This document shows, piece by piece, positions 17,553-18,712 of a stretch of DNA of 64,000 nt. The translations under genes and the position numbers were made by a program. The stretch is from Pseudomonas hormoni. Lineage in GTDB: Bacteria; Pseudomonadota; Gammaproteobacteria; Pseudomonadales; Pseudomonadaceae. The stretch lies in the NCBI RefSeq assembly GCF_018502625.1, contig NZ_CP075566.1, positions 873,001 through 937,000 on the forward strand. Direction: 5' to 3'. Every line of letters begins with the position of its first letter. The stretch's first letter is position 1. The notes beneath the pieces were generated by a model. That model did not search any database, was not told the DNA's origin, and worked only from the letters and a program-made list of their open reading frames with translations.

Positions 17553-17589
17553 TGTGTCTAGATCTAGGAATAAGCTCTGGGGTGAGAGG

Positions 17590-17729
17590 GGTGAATGGCA
17601 AGCTGTGAGTCCGCGGTGCTTAAAGCACGTGTGGGAGCCAAGCTGCCATTCACCTTTCCACTCTGGCCCATAAGCCCGAACAGTTGGACGAGCAGCCACT
17701 CGAAATCACAAGCGTGGGCAAAGCCAGAG
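17590..17729 (+). ncRNA. Predicted IS110 bridge RNA (target and donor loops)
   Basis: Two stem-loops precede the transposase gene. Loop 1: 17590-17604 pairs with 17641-17654 (14 bp, one bulge) and holds a small hairpin (GTGCT/AGCAC, 17616-17628). Its left side, GTGAGTCCGC (17605-17614), can pair with the bottom strand of the left target GCAAGCCCGC (three G-U wobbles). Its right side, TGTGGGAG (17630-17637), is the exact complement of CTCCCACA in the right target. Loop 2: CTCTGGC (17661-17667) pairs with GCCAGAG (17723-17729). It holds ACAGTTG (17680-17686), identical to the element's right end, and CACAAG (17707-17712), complementary to CTTGTG at its left end. The layout is that of the bridge RNA described for IS621. 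Transcript ends are unknown. Confidence 0.8.
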
Positions 17730-17762
17730 CACTCTCACTCCTGAGTGTAAGAGGGTTTTGCC

Positions 17763-18680
17763 ATGATTTCCTGGGTCGGCATCGATATCTCCAAATCAAA
17801 CCTCGTTGTTTGGGTTCAACCAGACGGTGAAGGTTTTGAGCTTTCAAACACCTCAGAAGGCTGTGTTGAGCTTCTTCAGCGCTTGAGCCAGTACGAGGTT
17901 GGCCGAGTTCTGCTGGAGGCCACGGGAGGCTACGAGCGCAAGGTCATGGCCGCATTGCTAGGTGCCAACTTCAATGTCCTCAGGATCAATCCTCGCCGGG
18001 CCAGGGCTTTCGCCGTGGCGATGGGCAAAAATGCCAAGACCGATCTGATCGATGCAGCTGTGTTGGCCGATTTCGCCGAGGTCTTGAAGATGGACGGCGA
18101 CAAGGTCATTTCGCCTGAGCGTGAAGCGTTGCGCGAGCTGGTTCAGCAACGCGAGCACTTCGTACAGCAACGGGACGACAATAAGCGCCGGCTTCAGCAG
18201 GCTCAGCTACCCGCTGTTGTGGCGGCAATCAAAGGCCATATTCATTACCTGCAAGTTCAGATCAAGCAGCTCGATAAAACCATCCACCAGAGCATGCACG
18301 ACCTGGACGCAGAAAAAACCGAGCGGCTCATCTCTGTTAAAGGTATCGGCACGGTCGCCACTGCCAGTTTGCTGGTTTACCTGCCCGAGTTAGGCAAGCT
18401 CGACCGTCGCCAGGTCGCCGCACTGGCAGGAATTGCACCCTGCAACGATGACAGCGGCAATCACAGCGGGAAACGCCAAATCTATGGAGGAAGAGCCCGT
18501 GTGAGGCGTGCGCTTTACATGTCCTGCTGGGTAGTGATCCGCTATCAAGCTGACTTTAAAGCACGCTATGACGCTCTTCGGGCGCGAGGCAAGAGCGCGA
18601 AGGTCGCGCTCATCGCCTGCATGCGAATATTACTGATCAGACTGAATGCCATGCTGAGAGACGGCACCGAATGGCGCTGA
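17763..18680 (+). CDS. IS110-family transposase (bridge-RNA recombinase)
   Basis: A 305-residue DEDD transposase. The RuvC-like N-terminal domain has D8 in VGIDISK, E52 in LEATGGYE, and D94 and D97 in KTDLIDA. A coiled-coil linker follows (about 120-185). The C-terminal Transposase_20 domain has GIGTVATASLL, ALAGIAPCNDDSG and YGGRARVRRALYMS; Ser231 in DDSG is the likely catalytic serine. The gene is intact, with no frameshift. A GAGG lies about 10 bp before the ATG. It would work with the RNA encoded just upstream to insert into REP palindromes. Confidence 0.95.
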   Translation: MISWVGIDISKSNLVVWVQPDGEGFELSNTSEGCVELLQRLSQYEVGRVLLEATGGYERKVMAALLGANFNVLRINPRRARAFAVAMGKNAKTDLIDAAVLADFAEVLKMDGDKVISPEREALRELVQQREHFVQQRDDNKRRLQQAQLPAVVAAIKGHIHYLQVQIKQLDKTIHQSMHDLDAEKTERLISVKGIGTVATASLLVYLPELGKLDRRQVAALAGIAPCNDDSGNHSGKRQIYGGRARVRRALYMSCWVVIRYQADFKARYDALRARGKSAKVALIACMRILLIRLNAMLRDGTEWR

Positions 18681-18704
18681 CGAATGGCAGGGTGAAGACA
18701 GTTG

Positions 18705-18712
18705 CTCCCACA
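18705..18712. repeat. Right remnant of the split REP arm
   Basis: CTCCCACA, the end of the REP arm interrupted at 17552. The next bases, GGTTTATGCAGTACC, are ordinary flanking sequence. The 233 bp from here to 18945 contain no gene. Confidence 0.88.

Follow-up and report, generated by a model that had tools for sequence, protein, structure and literature searches.

An IS110-family element of Pseudomonas hormoni with a predicted bridge RNA whose guides match its insertion sites in REPs

Results and Discussion

A 64,000-nucleotide (nt) stretch of the Pseudomonas hormoni genome (NZ_CP075566.1, positions 873,001 to 937,000; hereafter the window) carries an insertion element that is very probably an autonomous, IS621-like member of the IS110 group, guided into repetitive extragenic palindromes (REPs) by its own bridge RNA. 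The element itself is of a known kind, with precedents in ISPpu9, ISPpu10 and IS621. It and its relatives make up a natural data set of 101 distinct insertion sites and 17 nine-letter guides. Comparing these yields rules of bridge-RNA targeting with no need for experiments: guides of about 6 nt (left) and 7 nt (right), wobbles that mostly suit a sense-strand RNA, and a selectivity that separates REP classes. The left end also links an Rfam small RNA (sRNA) family to IS110 elements and leads to a testable claim on how the elements stay quiet; of all the findings, this link to an antisense RNA most deserves further work.

The element and its insertion sites

The element (Table 1) is flanked by CT dinucleotides at 17551-17552 and 18705-18706, the second of which completes a 1154-bp unit, and its left and right flanks joined across it read GGGCAAGCCCGCTCCCACA. 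A search of the whole genome (6.48 Mb in one contig; 40 of 43 candidates scored) gave ten matches. Seven are full copies, the other three are short pieces of the right end, and no left-end relic was among them. Each of the seven full copies lies at the same CT within a REP (GCAAGCCCG-CT-CCCACA), with GCAAGCCCG-CT on the left and CTCCCACA on the right, while the flanks are otherwise unlike. The three short pieces (L008, L009 and L010) are relics in which just the final 50-61 bp of the element survive, together with CTCCCACA.

The 305-residue product matches the NCBI model 'IS110 family RNA-guided transposase' and, from its hits to both PF01548 and PF02371, is predicted to be a DEDD recombinase of the kind found in the IS110 group. 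The architecture is also that of the group: a long non-coding left end of 210 nt (17553-17762), a short right end of 24 nt past the stop codon, a short core shared by donor and target (CT in all seven copies), a specific site and a scarless empty site, of which 20 uninterrupted examples were counted. The first-pass annotation of this DNA, made from the sequence alone, had placed an IS110 element in a REP between two CT dinucleotides, and the shared junctions and domain matches bear this out.

The predicted bridge RNA and the circle junction

The left end is predicted to encode a bridge RNA with two guide loops. Its fold is better than those of all 200 shuffled sequences (z = -4.5), and among 22 aligned left ends 11 of the 45 predicted consensus pairs have changed on both sides. 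The alignment drew on 30 printed trimmed left ends, from which the near-duplicates L005, L011, L013, L018 and L055 were excluded, as were L027, L075 and L085. On re-reading, the left guide matches the left target with seven identities and three wobbles, just as first annotated, and the four guide segments do fall in the order that had been proposed, each placed as an IS621-type bridge RNA needs. The second-loop letters match both donor strands, and donor and donor guide are nearly invariant. Two groups of relatives, L025/L060-L065 (genome G018) and L123/L140-L144 (G363), are a natural case of a shifted donor, in which one additional G precedes the core (ACAGTTGG-CT) and the left donor guide is ACAGTTGACT.

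The promoter of this RNA would be completed only in the excised circle, a principle known for IS110 elements (PMC11208160). The predicted -35 (TTGCTT) arises when the TTG of the right end is joined via CT to the left end; in the integrated element target letters stand in place of the TTG. After joining through CT, TTG lies exactly 23 nt ahead of TAnnnT in 26 of 26 distinct combinations of right and left ends. L025 and L123 have a right end one base longer and a left end one base shorter, so the 23-nt distance is kept, and this offsetting change appears to be an independent sign of selection on the spacing.

From this arrangement we infer excision, transcription and catalysis as follows. The element would excise as a circle in which right end, CT and left end are joined and the promoter is complete. 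Transcription from the junction would yield first a bridge RNA, about 160 nt long, and after it the recombinase message. The first loop would pair with both REP strands around CT, using a left guide of about 6 nt and a right guide of 7 nt including the core, and the second loop with the joined ends of the element itself. The recombinase would exchange the two DNAs at CT, so that the element would come to lie with the REP palindrome on one side and the CCCACA tail of the REP on the other, with no gene broken here.

Guides and targets in related genomes

Relatives were sought in 398 genomes of the genus, P. hormoni included, and a DNA search with the left end gave matches in 42 of them, a covariance model of the 22 aligned left ends in 39. 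The fetched loci gave 148 parsed rows, repeat-fetched places included, which represent 101 distinct insertion sites when told apart by the 30-nt upstream flank. Dropped before this stage were L097 and L177, in which the left core was not found, and L126, whose loop the script could not parse; by eye, AGCGCG of the L126 loop matches. Nine further rows with fewer than seven left-target letters or with an N were then excluded, and the 22 of 148 rows lacking a read right end were left out of the right-guide test.

The left half of the target loop occurs in 19 forms, 17 of them as nine-letter guides. In 35 distinct pairs covering the 19 loop halves, cognate guide and target pair at a mean of 5.98 of 7 positions against 5.32 when permuted, and the 34 distinct pairs of the nine-letter guides give 5.97 against 5.25; none of 20,000 permutations reached the observed value in either test. 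The predicted bridge-RNA pairing is, over these pairs, beyond chance. Counting sense wobble, positions -1 to -5 are paired in at least 32 of the 35 pairs, -6 in 24 and -7 in 19; at -8, 22 of the pairs have a transversion that leaves the position unpaired. As a family rule the 10-nt left guide is too long, with consistent pairing predicted only from about -6 to -1. The right guide tracks its target from CTCCCAC to CTCCTAC to CTTCCTA, and all seven positions are paired in five of six classes. Letters have changed on both sides, guide and target alike, in L060 (ATTCG in each), L130 (GGTCCG), L089 (AGCCAG) and L124 (TTCGTCCC in the guide, TTCGCCCC in the target). Sister copies that bear the window's own guide had been set as a test of the annotation, and they sit at matching sites: all 31 distinct sites are pairable at -7 to -1 (30 with GCAAGCCCG, one with GTAAGCCCG). 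Among related elements, different guide letters mostly go with a different insertion site. As is characteristic of the IS110 group, the letters of the first loop can pair with both strands of the target and change in step with them; 5 of 34 pairs are misfits.

The same data bear on the proposal that the recombinase itself recognises the REP, by sequence or as a hairpin, and that the left-end matches are coincidence or captured REP fragments. REPs are able to form hairpins, ISPsy8 of another family (IS3) also inserts into REPs (PMC1525189), and TGTGGGAG of the loop is itself a REP motif. However, among the relatives a change of guide letters goes with a change of target letters, L124 of G161 lies at a different site (CTTCGCCCC-CT-TCCTAC) and has a guide matching that site, and a hairpin reader would not be expected to prefer one REP class in seven of seven copies. 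Direct recognition is therefore very unlikely.

Several observations weigh against guidance by a bridge RNA. The permutation test of the right guide is weaker (six classes only; 328 of 20,000 permutations). Five of the 34 guide/target pairs do no better than the average of other guides: L084/L106 has one base fewer before CT, L085/L114/L174/L175 is mismatched at -1 in all copies read in G165, L027/L066/L095/L122 is paired at 4 of 7 positions, and L165 and L178 are also among the five. L088 is mismatched at -2 and L075 has changed letters. Because the donor guides are nearly constant, co-variation gives no test of donor pairing, and the donors of L025 and L123 have an extra G where the guide has A. 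Wobbles in the stems leave the two strands undistinguished (GU 8 against AC 5 in 786 cells). Both element ends were picked by conserved letters, so their conservation is partly built in, although the 23-nt spacing is exempt from this. Finally, the permutations and the wobble cells are not independent because the guides share descent.

In G165 three copies were read (L085, L114/L174 and L175), all of them at CCCC-CT sites, and their guide ends in CCCG. Tandem left ends in G264 (L081, L249) were considered as a double bridge RNA and set aside, as N letters at the joints suggest an assembly effect. Three units lacking a transposase (L244, L245 and L246, on contig 9 of G284) start, at the CT of REP-like sites, with the left end of this family, and within them lie half a target loop and a REP; they are possibly non-autonomous derivatives. 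They were also considered as mobile elements made of a bridge RNA alone, but by eye just one of them shows a likely right end, and a script using the exact letters found none.

REP classes and guide selectivity

A census of 864 kb of the P. hormoni genome gave 279 CTCCYAC sites. Of these, 111 were REP-like, sharing at least seven of nine letters with any of four REP variants, a rule that leaves very divergent REPs uncounted. Uninterrupted GCAAGCCCG-CTCCCAC sites number 20, and another REP class (GCAGGCTCG followed by CTCCCAC) makes up 36 of the 111. All seven copies in the genome lie in the class that the guide can pair with (23 of 111), for which a random draw gives P = 0.207^7 = 1.6e-5. The predicted guide is selective and would exclude about four fifths of the sampled REPs.

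The first-pass annotation had suggested that the three wobbles are tuned to tolerate REP variants, and here it was not upheld. The wobble positions are those at which the 111 sites hardly vary (C at -8 in 110, A at -7 in 109, C at -4 in 110). Variation is found at -6 (G 61, A 48, T 2), -3 (T 69, C 42) and -2 (C 72, A 34, others 5). The guide letters at these three positions, A, C and C, are unable to wobble. Since 23 sites are usable by the real guide with its wobbles and 22 by an all-Watson-Crick guide, the wobbles buy almost no tolerance. Relatives with the left guides GCAAGTCCG, GTAAGTCCG and GTGAGTCCG have a mostly unchanged target, and the wobbles look more like tolerated drift by transitions.

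An antisense match to Rfam sX15

At Rfam cut-offs the window has two matches, one unrelated and the other to sX15 (RF02234), which runs antisense to the predicted bridge RNA. The latter scores 59.4 bits against a cut-off of 55 (E 3.3e-7 for the window and 7.7e-9 when a stretch of 1.5 kb was searched) and falls on the strand opposite the transposase in all seven copies. Searches of 299 genomes of the phylum found 12 sX15 matches in 4 genomes, over the cut-off in 2, and 99 genomes of the family of G428 held 25 matches in 15 genomes, over the cut-off in 10; there were none in 14 control genomes. By tblastn, all 12 matches of the phylum set, seven of which are the P. hormoni copies, and 16 of the 25 in the G428-family set lie antisense beside an IS110 transposase start. 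Pooled, with one place common to both sets, this amounts to 27 of 36 matches in 13 of 18 genomes, or 16 of 23 over the cut-off.

The other nine matches of the G428-family set include L226, which adjoins a transposase remnant, L238, which is the same place on the other strand, and L228, L236 and L240, which are cut by contig ends; tblastn found no transposase adjacent to L223, L227, L233 or L235. L223, L227 and L235 are perhaps relics or stand-alone bridge RNAs, and recall the orphan ssr9 copies described for P. putida KT2440.

A possible -10 of an antisense promoter lies at the transposase start. In 21 of 22 relatives a minus-strand TAnnnT falls within a stretch of 16 nt, whereas about 16% of random 16-mers contain one; since the site lies partly over the ribosome-binding region and the relatives are close to one another, another constraint may explain it. 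An RNA from this promoter, whose existence and role in the host we infer, would probably span the whole bridge RNA and may modulate either the bridge RNA or translation of the transposase. Asr9, the antisense RNA of ISPpu9, was detected by northern blot, affects translation and was proposed to aid that of the transposase (PMC8450116), and Durrant et al. mention that the small RNAs of ISPpu9 are thought to modulate recombinase expression (PMC11208160).

The full-length antisense match and the Asr9 observations could also favour the older proposal, made for ISPpu9 before bridge RNAs were described, that the left end does not guide but regulates, as a 5' untranslated region (UTR) with an antisense sRNA. 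This leaves unexplained why changes in the target are matched in both halves of the first loop, and as a replacement for guidance it has little probability; the left end can, however, serve both functions at once. That an antisense transcript of the sX15/Asr9 type is the guide in place of the sense RNA, which plain complementarity cannot distinguish, is least probable of all, given that transitions between guide and target (245 non-independent cells) are pairable only as sense RNA 18 times and only as antisense twice, and that the junction promoter would drive the sense strand. Stem wobbles, tried as a marker of the structured strand, do not separate the two (8 against 5 cells), and the fold energies point both ways: the consensus fold favours antisense (-57.4 against -52.6 for sense) and the mean of single folds slightly favours sense (-77.5 against -74.7).

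We tentatively propose, as a possibility that we hold somewhat less probable than not, that sX15, Asr9 and the antisense transcript predicted here are one and the same thing: a conserved, dedicated 'anti-bridge RNA' of IS110 bridge RNAs. It would be made from the transposase-start promoter when the element is integrated and would mask both guide loops, thereby setting the balance between silence and transposition. If so, a bridge-RNA family is present in Rfam already, filed by its opposite strand with an unrelated name. The sX15 family reportedly stems from a Xanthomonas RNA-seq paper. No link of sX15 or Asr9 to a bridge RNA as its antisense was found in the literature searched.

Comparison with known systems

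ISPpu9 and ISPpu10 of P. putida KT2440 are likewise Pseudomonas IS110 elements, each with seven of seven copies in REPs and a 2-bp site repeat (Tobes 2006, PMC1525189). ISPpu9 also has a long structured 5' UTR and an antisense sRNA of about 180 nt (Gomez-Garcia 2021, PMC8450116), and the guides of ISPpu10 were drawn by Durrant et al. (2024, PMC11208160). The likeness to both is drawn from their published descriptions, and that to Asr9 from position and strand. The sRNA Ssr9 is described downstream of most ISPpu9 copies, whereas no counterpart turned up next to the present element. Boxes copied from the right and left ends of ISPpu9 flank Ssr9 (PMC8450116), which may be a further bridge RNA, aimed at a target other than a REP.

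IS621 of Escherichia coli (8wt6) shares the CT core and a REP target. Its two guide loops have the order predicted here (left target, right target, left donor, right donor), its right guide can be longer, it tolerates rG:dT, and circle formation completes its promoter, as would be the case here (PMC11208160). It differs in its distant protein (E 1e-31), its target and donor letters and its right guide, which is 4 nt long against 7-8 nt here; it is also described with a 5' stem-loop, whereas here a predicted closing stem joins the RNA ends. By protein sequence the best solved relative is the ISCro4 recombinase (9t56; E 3e-34). As to sX15, its model matches the reverse complement of the bridge-RNA region over the full length, but it is described as an sRNA of Xanthomonadaceae, in a description that mentions neither IS110 nor bridge RNA. 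Related literature includes Siddiquee 2024 (PMC11187229) and a paper on Herbaspirillum sRNAs (PMC6337395). No nearest ISfinder name emerged from plasmid records (n=2453), which match only at <60% identity, or from the best 120 listed proteins, whose names are generic.

Features and surroundings

Table 1. Coordinates in the window of the element, its predicted RNAs, guides and promoters.
Feature	Position	Strand	Basis or remark
Left target, REP arm GGGCAAGCCCG and core CT (17551-17552)	17540-17552	+	Junctions of copies; uninterrupted sites
Right donor, core CT and TGTGTC	17551-17558	+	TGTGTCT invariant in 22 aligned left ends; loci selected by CTTGTGTC
IS110-family element	17553-18704	+	Seven full copies with same ends, different flanks and 99-100% identity
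-10 hexamer TAAGCT, predicted bridge-RNA promoter	17571-17576	+	Inferred from 26/26 junction spacings
sX15 (RF02234) match, full length; predicted antisense sRNA	17576-17739	-	59.4 bits; antisense to bridge RNA
Predicted bridge RNA, ends approximate	17583-17740	+	Closing stem 17583-17588 with 17732-17737; fold z -4.5; consensus structure
Target-binding stem-loop, predicted	17590-17654	+	Consensus structure
Left target guide GTGAGTCCGC, predicted	17605-17614	+	Family-wide consistent pairing about -6 to -1
Right target guide TGTGGGAG, predicted	17630-17637	+	GTGGGAG (7 letters) pairs in 94/94 rows with this guide and a read right end; eighth position variable
Donor-binding stem-loop, predicted	17661-17729	+	Consensus structure
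Left donor guide ACAGTTG, predicted	17680-17686	+	Invariant in 22/22 aligned left ends; identical to right end
Right donor guide CACAAG, predicted	17707-17712	+	ACAAG invariant in 22/22, first letter variable; complement of CTTGTG (17551-17556)
Possible -10 (TACACT) of antisense promoter	17744-17749	-	Inferred; overlaps transposase ribosome-binding region
IS110 recombinase gene, 305 aa	17763-18680	+	PF01548 2e-23, PF02371 2e-16, NF033542 9e-63
Left donor ACAGTTG and core CT	18698-18706	+	Sequence read; junctions of copies
Right target CTCCCACA, remainder of REP	18705-18712	+	Sequence read; junctions of copies

The REP that holds the element is intergenic, and the insertion leaves both flanking genes unbroken: the first ends at 17447, and the start of the second is at 18892 or later. 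To judge by the look of the proteins, the first would encode an HrpA-like helicase and the second a 3-oxoacyl-ACP-synthase-like protein. The interrupted REP (17536-17552 with 18705-18712) is the second of an inverted pair whose first member is at about 17469-17494, a doublet resembling a REPIN. The unrelated Rfam match in the window is to TwoAYGGAY RNA, at 23399-23463 on the minus strand, with 48.6 bits against a cut-off of 43.
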